The translations under genes were made by a program, and so were the position numbers. The notes beneath the pieces are model-generated. The model did no database searches. It saw nothing but the letters and a program-made list of their open reading frames with translations, and was not told the origin of the DNA. A DNA stretch of 50,163 nt from Granulicoccus phenolivorans DSM 17626 = NBRC 107789 = JCM 15570. Lineage in GTDB: Bacteria; Actinomycetota; Actinomycetes; Propionibacteriales; Propionibacteriaceae. This document shows, one piece after another, positions 9,883 through 21,405 of the stretch. Location: the NCBI RefSeq assembly GCF_000423085.1, contig NZ_KE383974.1, positions 158,400 to 208,562 on the forward strand, read 5' to 3'. Positions within the stretch are counted from its first letter, which is position 1. Each line of letters starts with the position of its first letter.

Positions 9883-9931
9883 CCTTGCGAGCGGGTGACC
9901 GCGATTCAGCGAACTGAGTGAGGTTGTGCAG

Positions 9932-11005
9932 GTGTCAGGGAACCCGTTCCGTCGGTCGCAGGCCCGCCGTGCCGCCGTCGCCACCCGCGTACCCACCGAT
10001 CCCGAGCTGAGCATCAAGCGGCTGTGCGGGCAGAGTCTGGCCGCGGTCGCGATCTCCGCGCTGGGGATGGCCGTGGCCGTGTCGGTCGGGATGACCGCCG
10101 CCGCGGAGTCCGAGCGGCTCGCCGGCGATGCGCCGGCCACCTCCCAGGGCAATCCGGACATCACCCGGGCGAACCCGGCGCCGATGGCCCAGCAGGCCGA
10201 ACGCAACCTGGCCGCGATCCAGCAGGCCGAGGTGCACCAGGGCGATCAGGCCGGTTCCCTGGACGTGTTCACCCGGCTGAGCCGGGACGACACCAGCCGC
10301 AATGTGCTGCGCGGCGAACTGGACAAGGCCGTCGCCGACCAGCAGGCGAAGCGCCGCACCGAGCAACTCACCCAGAGCAGCGACAAGGCCGCGCTGGAGT
10401 CTGGGACCGCGGTCCGCGACTCCCGCAACAAGGATCTGATGAACCGGACCGAGGCCACCCGGCGGGAGAACGAGCGCCTGGCGGAGGAGAAGCGCAAGAC
10501 CGGCGAGGCCCAGAACCAGGGCGGCTCGAACATGCCGGCCGCCCAGCCCGGGGATGGGGCCGGGCTGCCGTCGGGTGGGGGAGCCGGCGGGGCCTCGGTT
10601 CCGATGCCGCAGGGGCGCTACTCCCTGGGCGCCCGCTGGGGTGCGGTCGGTTCGTGGTCGCGGTACCACACCGGGCAGGATCTGCCGGCGCCGGTGGGTA
10701 CGCCGCTGCGGGCCGCGGCCGACGGCGTCGTGGTCACCTCCAACGGGGGCAGCTGGGCCGGCACCCACGTGGTGATCCGGCACGCCGACGGGTCGGCCAC
10801 CCTGTACGCGCACATGTCCGGCGCGAGCGTACGCCCGGGGCAGACCGTCCGCGGCGGTGACATGATCGGGGCGGTCGGGATGACCGGGCGTACCTTCGGC
10901 CCGCACCTGCACTTCGAGCACTACCCCAACGCCGCGACCGTCGGGAACCCCTACACCACCGACGATCCGGCCGCCTGGCTGGCTCGCCAGGGCGTACGCC
11001 TCTGA
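9932..11005 (+). CDS. M23-family peptidoglycan endopeptidase, membrane-anchored or secreted
   Basis: A 357-residue protein with a basic N-terminus (NPFRRSQARRAA), a hydrophobic segment at about residues 34-55 (signal or anchor), a long charged coiled-coil-like region (about 80-190), a Gly-rich linker and a C-terminal M23 (LytM) domain. Zinc ligands are His246 and Asp250 in HTGQD and the HLH pair His325/His327. The family cuts peptide cross-bridges of peptidoglycan. GTG at 9932 is chosen because GTGAGG lies eight bases upstream and the paralogue starts at the same codon with the same spacing. It has its own promoter and is convergent with pcrA. A close paralogue lies at 20128-21354. Confidence 0.92.
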   Translation: MSGNPFRRSQARRAAVATRVPTDPELSIKRLCGQSLAAVAISALGMAVAVSVGMTAAAESERLAGDAPATSQGNPDITRANPAPMAQQAERNLAAIQQAEVHQGDQAGSLDVFTRLSRDDTSRNVLRGELDKAVADQQAKRRTEQLTQSSDKAALESGTAVRDSRNKDLMNRTEATRRENERLAEEKRKTGEAQNQGGSNMPAAQPGDGAGLPSGGGAGGASVPMPQGRYSLGARWGAVGSWSRYHTGQDLPAPVGTPLRAAADGVVVTSNGGSWAGTHVVIRHADGSATLYAHMSGASVRPGQTVRGGDMIGAVGMTGRTFGPHLHFEHYPNAATVGNPYTTDDPAAWLARQGVRL

Positions 11006-15101: not shown

Positions 15102-16517
15102 TCAGCCTTCGCGGGCGTACGCCGGGGCGGGCTGCTCGGCCGCCTCCGACGCGGCCACCGCCCAATCCCGACCACCCGACTGCGTGCGCTCCCGCATCGC
15201 CGCCTCGTTCTCCAGCCAGCTGTGATCGTTGCCCTTCAGGAAGAAGATGTAGACCACCAGGGAGACCGCGATGACCGCGGTGACGTACCAGATGAACGCG
15301 GGCACCTGACCGGCTTCCCCGGCGGCCTGGTACAGCAGCGGCGCGGTGCCACCGAAGACCGAGTTGGACACCGCGTACCCCAGCCCCAGACCCAGCGCGC
15401 GGATGTGGGTCGGGAAGAGGTCGGCCTTGACCACCGCGTTGACCGAGGTGTAGCCGGTGAGGATGATGAAGCCGCCGACCAGGATCGCGAAGGCGAAGAT
15501 CGGGTTGGTCTGCTGGGGGAGTGCGGTGAGCAGGAAGCCGGTGTACAGGACTCCGCCGACGCCGAAGAAGATGAGCAGGGTCCGCCGCCCGACAATGTCG
15601 GACAACCATCCGCCCAGCGGCTGCAGCAGCATCAGGACGATCAGCGCTGCCAGGTTGAGCAGGGTCCCGGTGATCACATCGCCGCCGGAGAATGCCTTCT
15701 TGACGATTCCCGGGCCGGTGACGGAGTAGGTGTAGAAGGCCAGGGTTCCGCCGGCGGTCACCAGGAAGCACAGCAGCAGCGGCTTCCACTGGTTCACCAG
15801 CAACTCGCGCATGGAACCCGTTCGGGTCGCGGTGCCGTTCTTGGCTGCCGCGATCGTCGAGGCGTCCAGGGTTTCGTCCATCGTGCGGCGCATCACCAGC
15901 ACGGCCAGCGCGCCGAGGGCGCCGATGCCGAAGGCAACCCGCCAGCCCCACTGGGAGATGGCCTCGTGCGGCAGGGCGACCACCATGATCAACAGCGTCA
16001 GCTGGGCCAGGACATGACCGCCGACCAGGGTGACGTAGTGGAAGGAGGACAGGAAGCCCCGGCGTCCGGGGACGGCTGCCTCGGACATGTACGTCGCGCT
16101 GGTGCCGTACTCGCCACCGGTGGCGAAGCCCTGGACCAGGCGGGCGATGACCAGCAGGACGACTGCCCCGGTGCCGATCGTCCCGGCCGTCGGGGCCACC
16201 GCGATCAGCAGGGAGCAGGCCGCCATCACCGACACCGACACCGTCAGCGCCAACCGCCGTCCGTGCCGGTCCGCGAAGCGCCCGAAGAACCAGGAGCCCA
16301 GCGGGCGCATCAGGAAGGTCAGTGCAAAGATCGCCCAGACGTACACCGTGGAGTTGGCATCGTTCTTGTCGAAGAACTGGGACTCGAAGTACGTGGCGAA
16401 CACGGAGTAGACGTAGACGTCGTACCACTCCACAAGGTTGCCCGCGGAGCCTTTCAGGGTGTTCGACACCGACCGTCGCAGGTTCGGTGCCGTCGCAGTC
16501 GTCGTTGACATTGACAC
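15102..16517 (-). CDS. MFS permease, metabolite:H+ symporter (MHS) type
   Basis: A 471-residue, 12-helix transporter. MHS-family signatures are GNLVEWYDVYVYS in helix 1, RPLGSWFFGRFADRHGRR in the first cytoplasmic loop, and GGEYGTSATYMSEAAVPGRRG after helix 4. Characterised relatives import 2-oxoglutarate, proline/betaine, citrate or shikimate with protons; a carboxylate is most likely but cannot be fixed. It is divergent from a regulator-kinase-binding-protein operon that probably controls it. Start is GTG 16517 or ATG 16511; neither has a good ribosome site. Confidence 0.9.
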   Translation of the reverse strand: MSMSTTTATAPNLRRSVSNTLKGSAGNLVEWYDVYVYSVFATYFESQFFDKNDANSTVYVWAIFALTFLMRPLGSWFFGRFADRHGRRLALTVSVSVMAACSLLIAVAPTAGTIGTGAVVLLVIARLVQGFATGGEYGTSATYMSEAAVPGRRGFLSSFHYVTLVGGHVLAQLTLLIMVVALPHEAISQWGWRVAFGIGALGALAVLVMRRTMDETLDASTIAAAKNGTATRTGSMRELLVNQWKPLLLCFLVTAGGTLAFYTYSVTGPGIVKKAFSGGDVITGTLLNLAALIVLMLLQPLGGWLSDIVGRRTLLIFFGVGGVLYTGFLLTALPQQTNPIFAFAILVGGFIILTGYTSVNAVVKADLFPTHIRALGLGLGYAVSNSVFGGTAPLLYQAAGEAGQVPAFIWYVTAVIAVSLVVYIFFLKGNDHSWLENEAAMRERTQSGGRDWAVAASEAAEQPAPAYAREG

Positions 16518-16600
16518 AGTCCATTCGTTTCGGGTGAGCCGGCTCTTCGTTCGGTGAGCCGTTCAGGGACAGGACCATCCTCACGGCCGCGACGGTGCCC

Positions 16601-16610
16601 GAACCGGTTC
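16601..16610. promoter_or_regulatory. Palindrome GAACCGGTTC between permease and regulator
   Basis: A perfect 10-bp palindrome in the 171-bp divergent intergenic region. It is a candidate operator for the adjacent OmpR-family regulator, although that family more often binds direct repeats. An AT-richer segment (taacagtccctttacaaaca) follows immediately and may hold the permease or regulator promoter. Confidence 0.4.
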
Positions 16611-16675
16611 CCTAACAGTCCCTTTACAAACACTTTCCCCACCGCCTGCCCGCTCGGCCGGGGGACGGCGCGGGG

Positions 16676-16681
16676 CATACT
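16676..16681 (+). promoter_or_regulatory. Putative -10 (CATACT) for leaderless regulator gene
   Basis: CATACT ends seven bases before the ATG at 16689, and no ribosome-binding sequence is seen (GGGCGCC only). The arrangement matches other leaderless candidates in the window. Confidence 0.4.
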
Positions 16682-16688
16682 GGGCGCC

Positions 16689-17345
16689 ATGCGAGTGCTG
16701 GTGGTCGAGGACGACCGTTCGGTCTCGGCTGCGTTGACCGCGGTCCTGACCCGGGTGGGCAACACCTGTACGGCGATCTCCCGGGGCGGGGAACTGGTGG
16801 CTCGGCACCGCGAGGCCGATGTGGTGCTGCTCGACCTCGGGCTGGAGGACATGGACGGGCTGGATGCCCTGCAACAGCTGCGCGAAGTCTCCGACATGCC
16901 GGTGCTGGTGGTCACGGCTCGCGGCGACGAGCGCTCCACGGTCGCGGCACTGCGCCTGGGGGCCGACGACTACCTGGTCAAACCGGTACGCCTGCACGAA
17001 CTGCTCGCCCGGCTGACCGCGGTGACCCGGCGGTATCCCGGTTTCGCGTCCCCGGAGCGGCTCCAGCTGGGCGACCTGGTGATCGAGGTCGCCGCGCACC
17101 GGGTCACCTACGGCGAGACCGAGGTGAGCCTGACCCCCACCGAGTTCTCCCTGCTCCTCGGGTTCGCCAAGCACGTCGGCAGTGCGGTGAGTCGGCAGAC
17201 CGTCGTCGAACACGTCTGGGGTCCGGGGTACGCGGCCAAGTCGCGGTCGTTCGATGTGCATCTGGCCCAACTGCGCCAGAAGCTGCCGATGCTCACCATC
17301 ACCACGATCCGCGGCTTCGGCTTCCGTCTCGAGGAGCCCGGGTGA
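16689..17345 (+). CDS. OmpR-family response regulator
   Basis: A 218-residue regulator with a receiver domain (acidic residues Glu7, Asp8 and Asp9, phospho-acceptor Asp49 in VVLLDLG, Lys in YLVKPV) and a winged-helix DNA-binding domain (LTPTEFSLLLGFAKHVG, then HVWGPGYAAKSRSFDVHLAQLRQKL and GFGFRLE). It overlaps the kinase start by four bases (GTGA). Together with the following kinase and binding lipoprotein, and the divergent permease, it resembles TctD/BctD-type control of carboxylate uptake; this is inference from arrangement. Confidence 0.94.
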   Translation: MRVLVVEDDRSVSAALTAVLTRVGNTCTAISRGGELVARHREADVVLLDLGLEDMDGLDALQQLREVSDMPVLVVTARGDERSTVAALRLGADDYLVKPVRLHELLARLTAVTRRYPGFASPERLQLGDLVIEVAAHRVTYGETEVSLTPTEFSLLLGFAKHVGSAVSRQTVVEHVWGPGYAAKSRSFDVHLAQLRQKLPMLTITTIRGFGFRLEEPG

Positions 17346-18739
17346 GGACCCGGGTCCTGCTGCCCCTGCTGATCTTCGGGCTGCTCACGATCTGCGCCAT
17401 CCTGGTCCCGGCCGGCGGGTCGATCGCAGCCGGGCGTACCCAACAACTCGCCCTGCAACGGGCAAACTCGATGGACCAGATCGGGCAGCGCGCCCAGGCC
17501 GCGATCGCCGCCGGGGAACCGGCGGTGCTGCAGCGCTACCTGCAGCGGTTCTTCGACACCTACGGTGAGCGGGTGCTCGTGGTCGACAACCAGGGTGCGG
17601 TCCTTGCCTCGGTCGGCGGCCTCGCCCCCACCGACCACATCGCCGACCTGGTGCTGGGGGCAACGCGCGCGGTGCCCCAATGGTCGGTTCCGGCGGTCTA
17701 CCCGTGGAGTGCCGACACCGTCCTGGTCGCCGAGCCCCTGCTGTCGGAGGGGAGCACGGTGCTCGGGGCGGTGGTGCTCGAGATCAACCAGACCGCGGCC
17801 AAGCGCGACATCATCGGTGGCTGGATCCTGGTGGGGCTCACCGGTGCCGGTCTGTTGGCGGTGCTGCTGCTCGCCTCGATCAGCTGGACCCGCTGGGTGC
17901 TGCGTCCGGTGCGCGCCCTGGACCGGGCCACCCAGGCCGTCGCCGAGCGCCGGGTCCCGGATCTGCAGGGCACGCCCGGGCCACCGGAACTGCGGCGGCT
18001 CGCCGATTCGTTCGTACGCATGGCCCGGGGGGTGGAGGACGCCCTCGAACAGCAGCGCGGGCTGGTCGCCGATGCCTCGCATCAGTTGCGCAACCCGCTG
18101 GCCGCGCTGCGCTATCGGGTGGACGGGCTCCGGGTGGGCCTCGACACCGGCCACGACCCGACCGGGACCGATCTGGATGCGATGGACCACGACCTCGATC
18201 GCCTGGAGCGGACCGTGGAGCGGCTGCTGGTGCTGGCCGATGCCGAACATCGCGCGACCGAGATCGCCGCGGAGGCAGCGGGACCGGGAGCCGACGCCGA
18301 CGTCGGCTGCGTGGTGTCCGCGGACGCGCTGGCGGCCCCGCACCGCCGCGCGCTGCACGAGGCCGGGATCGAGCTGGTGACCTCCGGGGCGGAGATCCGC
18401 GTCGCCGGTTCCTGCGGCGACATCGAGGAGATCGTCGAGATCCTGCTGGACAACGCCCGCAAGTACGCCGGGTCCGGGGCGACGGTCTGGGTCGGCCTCG
18501 ACCGGGCGGGCGACGTGGCGACGCTCGAGATCGCCGACTCCGGAACCGGGCTCACCGACGAGGAACTCGCCCGGGTCGGCACCCGGTTCTGGCGCGCGTC
18601 GCGGCACACCACGCTGCCCGGGACCGGCCTCGGGTATGCCATCATCACCCAACTGGCCCGCGCGAATCACGCCGAGGTCGAGGTCGGCCGGGCCGACCAG
18701 GGTGGACTGCGCACCCGGATCCGGCTGGGGGCGCGATGA
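17342..18739 (+). CDS. Sensor histidine kinase of the OmpR-type pair (TctE-like)
   Basis: A 465-residue kinase: N-terminal helix (about residues 5-25), an extracytoplasmic domain of about 130 residues, a second helix (about 158-182), a HAMP linker (RPVRALDRATQAVAER), a HisKA domain with DASHQLRNPL (His247), and an ATPase domain with N-box LLDNARKYA, DSGTGLTDEE and GTGLGYAI. The compact extracytoplasmic domain and the binding-protein gene that overlaps the stop (ATGA) suggest that the sensor reads a loaded binding protein rather than free solute. Starts at GTG within the previous stop. Confidence 0.93.
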   Translation: MRTRVLLPLLIFGLLTICAILVPAGGSIAAGRTQQLALQRANSMDQIGQRAQAAIAAGEPAVLQRYLQRFFDTYGERVLVVDNQGAVLASVGGLAPTDHIADLVLGATRAVPQWSVPAVYPWSADTVLVAEPLLSEGSTVLGAVVLEINQTAAKRDIIGGWILVGLTGAGLLAVLLLASISWTRWVLRPVRALDRATQAVAERRVPDLQGTPGPPELRRLADSFVRMARGVEDALEQQRGLVADASHQLRNPLAALRYRVDGLRVGLDTGHDPTGTDLDAMDHDLDRLERTVERLLVLADAEHRATEIAAEAAGPGADADVGCVVSADALAAPHRRALHEAGIELVTSGAEIRVAGSCGDIEEIVEILLDNARKYAGSGATVWVGLDRAGDVATLEIADSGTGLTDEELARVGTRFWRASRHTTLPGTGLGYAIITQLARANHAEVEVGRADQGGLRTRIRLGAR

Positions 18740-19659
18740 GCATCTCCCGGCGCGGCATCCTGCTCGGCCTGGCCGCGCTTCCGCTGATCGGCTGTACGCA
18801 GTCGGCCCAACCGGAGCCGCTGCGGCTGGCGGCCGGGGAGGCCGGTGGTCCCTACCTGGAGTTCGGGACGCTACTGAGCGCGGCGCTGCGGGCGCACGGC
18901 GGCGCCCAGCTGCAGGCCCTGCCCAGTGACGGCAGCATCCACAATCTGCGGCTGCTCGAGGCCGGATCGGTCGAGCTCGCCCTGGCGCAGGCCGACGCCG
19001 CCAGCGACCTCGGGCGCGGCGCGGTGGCGATCGGGCGGGTGTACCAGAACTATCTGCAGTGCGTCGTCCGCGCCGACAGCGGGCTGCGCCGGCTCGCGGA
19101 GCTGGCCGGGCGTCGGGTGTCGGTCGGGGCACCCGAGTCCGGTGGCGCGCTCACCACCCGCCGCATCCTCGAGGCCGCCGGGCTCACGACCGGTCCGCAG
19201 GCACCGACGCTCAGCGAGCGGGGACTGGCCGGCGGCGCGGCGGCGCTGGCCGCCGGCGACGTCGACGCCTTCTTCTGGGCCGGGGGTGTGCCGACCGCGC
19301 GGATCGCCGACCTGGCGGCCACCGGTACGCCGGTCGCGCTGCTCGACCTGGGCACCACCTTCGCTGCCCTCAACGCCGCCCATCCTGACCGCTATCTGGC
19401 CACCGAGGTACCCGCCGGGGCGTACGGCTCCCGCGCGCCGGTGCCGACCATCGGCGTACCGAACCTGTTGCTGGCCCGACCCGATCTGCCCGACCCGGTC
19501 GCCCGGACGCTGGTCGACGTACTCATCGACGATGCCGAAGCGCTGGTCCCCGCCGGATCGGCAGGCCTGCAATACCTCTCCCGGGCCGGGCTGATCGACA
19601 CCGCGCCGGTCCCGCTGCATCCGGCCGCGCTGCAGCGCTACCGCGAGCGGTACGGGTGA
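18736..19659 (+). CDS. TAXI/TRAP-type solute-binding lipoprotein
   Basis: A 307-residue lipoprotein. The signal peptide has SRRG followed by a hydrophobic stretch and the lipobox LIGC (Cys20), giving a membrane-anchored extracellular protein. The mature part shows TAXI-family features: an early AAGEAGGPYLEFG nucleotide-like loop, SIHNLRLLEAGSVELALAQADAA, and VSVGAPESGGALTTRRILEAAGL. TAXI proteins normally feed TRAP transporters, but no TRAP membrane subunit is here. Its ATG overlaps the kinase stop, so it is made together with the sensor. I infer that it is a sensing accessory protein, as TctC/BctC-type proteins are for their kinases. Confidence 0.88.
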   Translation: MSISRRGILLGLAALPLIGCTQSAQPEPLRLAAGEAGGPYLEFGTLLSAALRAHGGAQLQALPSDGSIHNLRLLEAGSVELALAQADAASDLGRGAVAIGRVYQNYLQCVVRADSGLRRLAELAGRRVSVGAPESGGALTTRRILEAAGLTTGPQAPTLSERGLAGGAAALAAGDVDAFFWAGGVPTARIADLAATGTPVALLDLGTTFAALNAAHPDRYLATEVPAGAYGSRAPVPTIGVPNLLLARPDLPDPVARTLVDVLIDDAEALVPAGSAGLQYLSRAGLIDTAPVPLHPAALQRYRERYG

Positions 19660-20127: not shown

Positions 20128-21354
20128 TCAGAGGCGTACGCCCTGTCGCGCCATCCACGAGACCGGATCGTCGGTGGTGTAGGGGTTGCCGACGTCCGAG
20201 GCGTTGGGGTAGTGCTCGAAGTGCAGGTGCGGGCCGAAGGTACGCCCGGTCATCCCGACCGCGCCGATCGACTCGCCACCCTTGACGACCTGTCCGGGCC
20301 GCACGGTCATCGCGGACATGTGCGCGTACAGCGTGGCCGACCCGTCGGCGTGCCGAATCACCACGTGGGTGCCGGCCCAGCTGCCACCGTTGGAGGTGAC
20401 CACGACGCCGTCGGCAGCCGCCACCAGCGGCGTACCCACCGGAGCGGGGAGGTCCTGGCCGGTGTGGTAGCGCGACCACGAGCCGACCGCACCCCAGCGA
20501 GCGCCCAGGGTGTAGGCGCCGCGGGCGATCGGGGAGGTGGCGCCACCGGAGCCACTGGCGGCCGGGGCCGGCGCAGCCTGACCGCCGGCGGCCTGATCGG
20601 CACCCGCCTGGGTGCTGCCGGTCTGCGCGGCCTGGTTGCCACCGCTCTGCTGGGCGGCGTTGACGTTGGTCTGGGAGGTGTCGGTGCTCCCGGCCGGCTG
20701 CTGCTGCTTGGCCGCCTGCTGCGGCATGTTGGAGCCGCCCTGGTTCTGCTGGGCCTGCTGCGCGGCGCGCTGGGCCTCTTCGGCCTTGCGCTTCTCCTCC
20801 TCCAGGCGCAGCTGCTCGCGCTTGGCGCCCTCGGACTTGATCACCAGGTCGCGGGAACGGGTGTCCCGGACGGCGGTGCCGGACTCCAGGGCAGCCTTGT
20901 CGCTGGTCTGGGTCAGCTGCTCGGTGCGCTCCTTGGCCTGCTGGTTCGCCACGGCCTTGTCCAGCTCGCCGCGGACGGCGTTGCGGCTGGTGTCATTGCC
21001 CTGGCGGTTGAACACGTCGAGGGAGCCGCCCTCGTCGGTGCCGTTGGCCTTCTTGGTGGCCTGCTCGACCGCGGCCTGCTCCCGGGCGGCCGCAGCCGCT
21101 GCCGGGGCCGGGTTCGCCCGGCTGATGTCGGGGTTCCCCTGTCCGGCGACCGGAGCATCGGTGGAGATCTGTGCCGACTGCGCGGAGGCGGTCATCCCGA
21201 CCGACACTGCAACGCCCATGCCGAGGGCAGACACGGCCACCGCGGCCAGCCCCTGCCCGATCATCCGCTTGATGCTCAGGTCTCCATCCTGATGCGCGCG
21301 GGGCGCCTTCGCCGCGCGGCGGGCCTGAGACCTCTTGAAAGGATTCCCTGACAC
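20128..21354 (-). CDS. M23-family peptidoglycan endopeptidase, paralogue of 9932-11005
   Basis: A 408-residue protein with the same plan as the earlier peptidase: NPFKRSQARRAAK, hydrophobic segment (about residues 38-58), charged coiled-coil-like region with the shared block KAALESGTAVRD, and an M23 domain with His297/Asp301 (HTGQD) and His376/His378 (HLH). The catalytic domains are nearly identical; this copy has a longer Gln/Ala/Gly-rich linker (about residues 215-280). GTG at 21354 follows AGAGG by eight bases, the same codon and spacing as in the paralogue. The promoter block is also conserved. It probably splits cross-links during growth or division; the reason for two copies is unknown. 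Confidence 0.93.
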   Translation of the reverse strand: MSGNPFKRSQARRAAKAPRAHQDGDLSIKRMIGQGLAAVAVSALGMGVAVSVGMTASAQSAQISTDAPVAGQGNPDISRANPAPAAAAAAREQAAVEQATKKANGTDEGGSLDVFNRQGNDTSRNAVRGELDKAVANQQAKERTEQLTQTSDKAALESGTAVRDTRSRDLVIKSEGAKREQLRLEEEKRKAEEAQRAAQQAQQNQGGSNMPQQAAKQQQPAGSTDTSQTNVNAAQQSGGNQAAQTGSTQAGADQAAGGQAAPAPAASGSGGATSPIARGAYTLGARWGAVGSWSRYHTGQDLPAPVGTPLVAAADGVVVTSNGGSWAGTHVVIRHADGSATLYAHMSAMTVRPGQVVKGGESIGAVGMTGRTFGPHLHFEHYPNASDVGNPYTTDDPVSWMARQGVRL

Positions 21355-21405
21355 CTGCTCTACCTCTTCCAGTTCCGGTTGTGCGGGGATCACCGCACTT
21401 CAGGA

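Follow-up and report, generated by a model that had tools for sequence, protein, structure and literature searches.

We analysed a 50,163-nt stretch of the Granulicoccus phenolivorans DSM 17626 genome (NZ_KE383974.1, positions 158,400-208,562; hereafter the window, with coordinates counted from its first letter), in which a TAXI binding lipoprotein is encoded directly behind an OmpR-family response regulator and a sensor histidine kinase, and divergent from an MHS-family permease of the major facilitator superfamily (MFS). We propose, at a probability of roughly 0.77, that these genes specify a three-component carboxylate-sensing system in which the TAXI protein would be the sensor subunit and the MHS permease the regulated output. 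Comparison of related loci supports the sensor-subunit reading well: it points to a recurrent co-translated unit, co-occurrence of TAXI protein and kinase in both directions, swapping of the transporter, and a predicted regulator box that is conserved with the transporter.

In the proposed mechanism the lipoprotein, tethered outside the membrane, would bind a small carboxylate and contact the PAS-like extracytoplasmic domain of the kinase. The kinase would phosphorylate the OmpR-type regulator. This would bind the tandem 11-bp repeats in the divergent spacer and so activate the gene of the MHS carboxylate permease, and perhaps the regulator's own operon too. The TAXI protein would sense, delivering no substrate to the permease. 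We infer the ligand, the TAXI-kinase contact, the binding of the regulator to the box and activation as the sign of regulation.

The regulator-kinase-TAXI unit and its transporters

A sequence-only reading of the window had described four-base overlaps joining the regulator, kinase and lipoprotein genes, with the permease divergent; the open reading frames (ORFs) and the sequence confirm this, the overlaps being GTGA and ATGA. Species genomes were scanned with patterns drawn from two operon-linked TAXI proteins, and the best 80 of 192 confirmed stretches make up the named set. By script, a regulator and a kinase lie directly upstream of the TAXI gene on the same strand in 78/80 loci, and the arrangement is therefore more than chance. 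The 4-bp kinase/TAXI overlap recurs in 67 of the 80. The two loci without the upstream pair are L134 and L159, the latter ending at a contig end. At L134 the fetched stretch contains the TAXI gene of Microbacterium gorillae (L134:7647-8933) but no gene recognised as belonging to a kinase, a regulator or a TRAP system, and the TAXI gene faces one for a thiamine-diphosphate enzyme.

An MHS permease is found at 65/80 named loci. In 34 of them, mainly from Microbacteriaceae and arranged like the window, its gene is divergent; in the other 31 (Nocardia, Amycolatopsis, Kribbella and Kutzneria) it precedes the regulator gene on the same strand. A TRAP permease with a second TAXI protein replaces it in three (Leucobacter luti, L. 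chromiireducens LYC-2 and Terrabacter), and in ten no MHS or TRAP transporter was recognised; Saccharothrix and Amycolatopsis suaedae are among those with kinase and TAXI gene but no transporter. At L160, one of the ten, an Nramp-like transporter (L160:4558-5814) is divergent to the regulator, and the spacer of the two genes has a box-like site (score 10.3); such a transporter is an odd partner for a carboxylate sensor. Outside the named set, the transporter is TctCBA at L039 (TctC, TctB and TctA matched) and at L034 (TctC matched), and DctA at L045, where the TAXI gene is convergent with the kinase gene. At L039 a malate:quinone oxidoreductase gene (L039:2394-3860) is divergent from the regulator, which hints at co-regulated malate metabolism.

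The association was also examined, with less bias, across the phylum. A profile of six kinase-linked TAXI proteins gave 52 matches in 43 of 396 genomes; the window and L048 account for two of these matches, and each has a kinase. Within the fetched stretches of the other 50 loci, some of them short at contig ends, 25 carry a TRAP permease without a kinase of this kind, 15 carry a kinase without a TRAP permease, none carries both and six carry neither; four weak matches were not recovered as TAXI by the scoring, one of them with a TRAP permease. In a set of nearer relatives, several genomes have both at one locus, with a TAXI-TRAP system divergent from the regulator-kinase pair and a second TAXI gene convergent with the kinase. 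In the reverse direction, a sensor-domain profile searched in the 396 genomes (E <= 1e-6, ten candidates scored per genome) found 17 kinases in 16 genomes. Each of the 17 has a TAXI match no more than 7 kb away, and for 15 the distance is at most 1.3 kb. Counted by genome, the hypergeometric probability of this co-occurrence is 2e-17; counted by genus it is 1e-6, the fairer figure because 11 of the 16 genomes belong to one genus. The binding-protein gene is thus co-encoded with kinase and regulator across genera, as seen from either side (78/80 and, in reverse, 17/17).

In a tree of 60 TAXI proteins, built quickly by maximum likelihood (and including the mis-framed L036_5990 and L038_11900, which fall together on very long branches), a branch with an SH-aLRT of 99 separates the 28 operon-linked TAXI proteins sampled from the rest. 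The kinase-linked TAXI proteins of the TctCBA-type loci (L034, L039) and of the TAXI-TRAP loci (L132, L133, L148) fall inside this clade; the second, TRAP-linked TAXI proteins of L132, L133 and L148 group with other TRAP-linked ones. Therefore, the transporter was exchanged whilst the TAXI protein stayed with the kinase. Those kinase-linked TAXI proteins that are in convergent arrangement (13 rows) do not form a single group. The window TAXI protein sits among Microbacteriaceae sequences (highest identity 56%), and only 1/32 other genomes of its own family has a TAXI match; horizontal acquisition of the window unit is therefore likely.

That the lipoprotein is a sensing subunit, as the sequence-only reading had suggested, gains comparative support from these data: TAXI tracks the kinase and persists where the transporter has its own binding protein. 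We consider it unlikely that TAXI instead delivers substrate to the MHS permease, the two-component genes only regulating a binding-protein-dependent secondary transporter akin to TAXI-GltS. MHS permeases do lie near TAXI in 65/80 loci, and TAXI-GltS provides, in the cited part of its description, a precedent for a TAXI protein leaving TRAP for another secondary transporter (PMC12344293). However, TAXI is co-translated with the kinase and not with the permease, and it is retained beside TAXI-TRAP with its own TAXI protein, TctCBA with its own TctC, and DctA. Moreover, a suggestion made in that part is that dependence on a substrate-binding protein may need an elevator mechanism (PMC12344293). 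No TAXI-MHS fusion was noticed, although no search aimed at fusions was made. MFS proteins are not known to be elevator transporters, which also weighs against delivery. Since TAXI goes with the kinase rather than with the transporter, the view that it serves the MHS permease as a transport subunit was rejected as the best reading.

TAXI proteins typically serve TRAP transporters. Given this role and the match of the window protein to TIGR02122, it might be an ordinary TAXI-TRAP binding protein with its permease elsewhere in the genome, and a gene could have been missed, the assembly (4.1 Mb) being 98.46% complete and in 74 contigs. We found no TRAP genes near the window TAXI locus. In the whole assembly the family model recovers a single TAXI protein, a second candidate place at E 0.03 being unmatched by that model, and the sole DctM found is fused to DctQ and adjoins a DctP-type, not a TAXI, binding protein. 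Thus no TAXI-type TRAP permease, linked or elsewhere, was found in the 98.46%-complete assembly. This agrees with the absence of a TRAP transporter noted from the sequence alone, and a dedicated partner elsewhere, which that reading had named as its refutation, did not come to light. The clade of the window protein is also distinct from the TRAP-linked ones. A missing TRAP partner was rejected after these TAXI and DctM searches; it is largely refuted and, in our judgement, very improbable.

A tandem repeat upstream of the transporter

Tandem 11-bp repeats were noticed on reading the divergent spacers. A strict pattern, C[ACT]T[AT]AC-N5-C[CT]T[AT]AC, searched on both strands of 4.73 Mb (the window, L033-L051, L053-L102 and L104-L183), gave 37 matches, every one of which lies between a transporter and a regulator gene (MHS 34, TRAP permease 2, TctC 1). 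In same-strand operons the same box is found, reversed, upstream of the MHS gene. We derived a weight matrix from the distinct sites, 25 in number, and defined a position rule (24-140 bp upstream of the transporter, centre to start, on the opposite strand). The best site of each locus obeys this rule in 71/78 loci with a recognised transporter (binomial 2e-69, relatedness ignored), that is in 35/37 loci whose site fits the training pattern and in 36/41 held out. Two training loci and the held-out L055, L137, L154, L167 and L169 fail it. The permease start at L137 was missed by the script, and by hand the site is ~108 bp upstream; at L154 only the second-best site (score 6.1) fits, and at L167 the contig ends. 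The predicted box follows the transporter, not the regulator, since at L039 it lies downstream of the TAXI gene and before tctC, while the regulator faces the malate:quinone oxidoreductase gene, and at L045 it precedes dctA. Many sites in Nocardia and Amycolatopsis score 9.5-18, partly within the chance range (25 TRAP-only loci reach 12.3), and these low-scoring sites count by position and conservation.

Tandem repeats of this sort are typical of OmpR/PhoB-type regulators. The exact window box occurs once in the 4.1-Mb genome. Allowing two mismatches gives 112 sites in this genome against 426 for a backwards control, and as to a wider regulon we claim only the single exact site. In the genomes of five relatives a Nocardia-type pattern gave two exact and 13 one-mismatch sites, never above the control, one forward count being equal to it. 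Both exact sites, one in a Nocardia and one in an Amycolatopsis genome, are in 3-kb loci with an MHS gene. Of the one-mismatch sites, one lies beside the expected Actinophytocola regulator and 12/13 are at loci without an MHS, TRAP or two-component query match. The MHS permease as likely output, the second part of the sequence-only proposal, gains independent comparative support from a predicted box that is conserved in position and orientation relative to the transporter and that occurs in its exact form once in the genome.

The TAXI protein, its pocket and its ligand

Membership of the TAXI family is firm by sequence, solved relatives and a confident model. The window protein scores 180.9 bits against TIGR02122 (TRAP_TAXI; cut-off 84.35) and 148.4 against PF16868 (NMT1_3; cut-off 27), and its structure model (pLDDT 90.8) matches the solved 8u79, 1us4 and 8s4j at query TM 0.75-0.79. 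It has the lipobox LIGC with Arg-Arg upstream, and R5, R6 and C20 are invariant in 24/24 aligned TAXI proteins.

Pocket residues were mapped with the VcGluP positions given in the cited part of PMC11574862, leaving out L036_5990 and L038_11900. Y40, S67, Q85, N105, W181 and A182 of the window protein correspond to Y45, S75, Q93, E125, Y200 and M201. The window protein thus has in common with VcGluP and TtGluBP, both TAXI-TRAP glutamate binders, the fold and several pocket residues (the Y45 and S75 equivalents), whereas it differs from VcGluP in having Asn for E125, Trp for Y200 and no TRAP partner. Asn at the E125 position is found in 26/28 operon-linked TAXI proteins. At the Q93 position 26/28 have Leu; the window protein retains Gln (Q85, codon at 18988-18990), and its ligand may consequently differ from that of its relatives. 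In the TRAP-linked TAXI proteins of L132, L133 and L148 these positions carry Tyr, Ser, Leu, Asn, Trp and Ser, as they do in the adjoining sensor copy, apart from a Phe in place of Trp in the L148 sensor. Sensor and transporter at these loci probably share one compound, since the pocket residues match.

Our best guess at the ligand is a di- or tricarboxylate such as 2-oxoglutarate, because the best NCBIfam model for the permease is PRK10406 (360.6 bits, below the cut-off of 550), which we take to be the KgtP (2-oxoglutarate) model, and because DctA and TctCBA are outputs elsewhere. Glutamate is also possible, the more so since the window protein keeps Gln. We attempted to choose a substrate from the pocket residues, but known TAXI ligands are too few to decide.

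Comparison with characterised systems

Two systems give precedents for binding proteins that work with kinases. In Bordetella pertussis the binding protein BctC activates a sensor kinase in the BctC-BctE/BctD system, turning on carboxylate transporter genes (PMC5812351, cited part). In Ruminiclostridium cellulolyticum a dedicated second binding protein and the two-component pair beside it (CuaD-CuaS-CuaR) control uptake genes as a three-component system (PMC10384115, cited part). Binding proteins can therefore activate kinases. BctC, however, is of the TctC family and doubles as the transport protein of BctCBA, whereas the window protein is of the TAXI family (NMT1_3) and appears dedicated to sensing; CuaDSR, unlike the window system, has a sugar ligand and an ABC transporter. 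A survey counts, in the passages cited, 13/22 binding-protein families known to interact with receptors, and about ten characterised kinase cases (PMC9602780). Judged by its genes, the window system would share the working mode of BctC-BctE or CuaDSR, with a TAXI protein that is yet outside any TAXI-TRAP.

Another TAXI protein without a TRAP partner, that of TAXI-GltS of B. pertussis, is translationally coupled to its neighbour, is an elongated dimer and acts in transport with GltS; neither kinase nor two-component appears as a word in the main text of its description (PMC12344293). The window TAXI gene overlaps the kinase gene and is neither coupled to nor fused with a permease. The pair is also not of TctD/TctE type, the regulator scoring 118.5 bits against the TctD equivalog cut-off of 337, and the kinase showing no Pfam match at E <= 0.001 to a TctE-type N-terminal sensor domain (presumably 2CSK_N).

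Gene order suggests that the nearest characterised relative is GluR-GluK (SCO5778/79) of Streptomyces coelicolor, in which an OmpR regulator and a kinase are divergent from, and regulate, the glutamate uptake operon gluABCD (SCO5774-77), as described in the cited passages of two reviews (PMC9739842, PMC10345050). In the census, loci of genus g35 (presumed Streptomyces) likewise have regulator and kinase genes that diverge from an ABC operon, and their TAXI gene is convergent with that of the kinase; the passages cited from the reviews make no mention of a TAXI gene. The g35 kinases at the presumed GluK locus were found with the window-based sensor profile (e.g. E 1e-15). At L070 the ATPase is best matched by GlnQ, one permease by GltK and the binding protein by a lysine/arginine/ornithine model, all below cut-offs. 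The window differs in that its output is an MHS permease and not an ABC operon of gluABCD type, and in that its TAXI gene is co-translated with the kinase. In L066, L070, L074 and L076 (presumed Streptomyces) a different 11-bp tandem repeat, CTCAGA-N5-CTCAGA, lies between the regulator and the ABC operon, and is perhaps the GluR box.

The kinase sensor domain and points against a sensory TAXI protein

The outer domain of the window kinase is modelled as a single PAS-like domain (pLDDT 92.6). VIA-align places WalK closest (Z 14.0, rmsd 2.7, 125 aligned) and ranks CitA, DcuS and DctB after it, and Foldseek gives weak matches (best E 6e-4), the LuxQ structure among the weak ones. On this model the domain would be PAS-like, and we read it no more finely. 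A Pro-Trp pair is invariant in 32/32 aligned sensor domains.

Several points weigh against our proposal. The search patterns bias the named set towards operon-linked TAXI proteins, and its members are related and not independent; similarly, the sensor profile was built from TAXI-linked kinases and only the ten candidates per genome were scored. No clear box is seen at nine loci that have a kinase and a TAXI gene but lack a recognised transporter (best scores -0.3 to 12.0). The predicted box could be used by another regulator, or in divergent loci could serve the promoter of the regulator, and the CTCAGA repeat is on the strand of the ABC operon, contrary to the orientation rule. Finally, a kinase whose own PAS-like domain resembles those of WalK, CitA and DcuS might bind the ligand itself.

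The last point leads to the alternative that the kinase senses the carboxylate directly, TAXI buffering or concentrating the ligand or being a bystander left from an old TRAP locus. The fold, like that of the WalK, CitA, DcuS and DctB sensors, is in keeping with this, as is the binding of glutamate by GluK directly in biolayer interferometry, according to the cited passage of one of the two reviews (PMC9739842, PMC10345050). Nevertheless, TAXI and sensor domain are retained jointly across genera, where a bystander should be lost. LuxQ, a PAS-like sensor, works with a binding protein, which further counts against direct sensing. We regard direct sensing as improbable and a sensory TAXI protein as the better account.

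Features of the window

The features of the locus are collected in Table 1. Family scans find Response_reg and Trans_reg_C (OmpR type) in the regulator, and HATPase_c, HisKA and HAMP as the only Pfam matches of the kinase at E <= 0.001.

Table 1. Genes and predicted elements of the TAXI locus (window coordinates).
Feature	Position	Strand	Basis and remarks
MHS-family MFS permease	15102..16511	-	ORF and family scans; ATG at 16511 is the likelier start, GTG at 16517 an alternative (ORF 15102-16517)
Predicted regulator box TCCCTAACAGTCCCTTTACAAA	16609..16630	+	11-bp direct repeats in tandem, followed by a third, weaker copy to ~16637
OmpR-family response regulator	16689..17345	+	ORF and family scans
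GTGA overlap (4 bp), regulator stop/kinase start	17342..17345	+	sequence
Sensor histidine kinase (extracytoplasmic sensor, HAMP, HisKA, HATPase)	17342..18739	+	ORF and family scans
Extracytoplasmic PAS-like sensor domain of the kinase	17420..17815	+	structure model and alignment; residues 27-158 of the kinase
ATGA overlap (4 bp), kinase stop/TAXI start	18736..18739	+	sequence
TAXI (NMT1_3) binding lipoprotein, proposed sensor subunit	18736..19659	+	family models, structure and tree

Two related genes, at 9926-11005 (+) and 20128-21393 (-), flank a helicase-like gene and the TAXI cluster in inverted orientation. They are 61.7% identical over 410 aligned positions, and the product of 20128-21393 is an M23-type peptidase (Pfam). 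A duplication or an inversion is a possible origin of the pair.

Implications

Among the matches listed from the open-licence PMC literature, there was no report of a TAXI protein paired with a kinase. If the proposal is correct, the TAXI family, known for uptake, would gain a second role as a signal input, and actinobacterial TAXI proteins that have no TRAP partner would be accounted for. Moreover, a single sensing unit would serve carboxylate importers of several unrelated kinds. A broader version, for which we see even odds, is that a whole actinobacterial kinase family, including Streptomyces GluK, is informed by TAXI proteins that left TRAP for a dedicated sensory role, and that unit and operator were afterwards joined to importers as unrelated as MHS, TAXI-TRAP, TctCBA, DctA and ABC transporters. 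The defined box may be used for target prediction, and it becomes directly testable whether a binding protein relays the glutamate signal to GluR-GluK.

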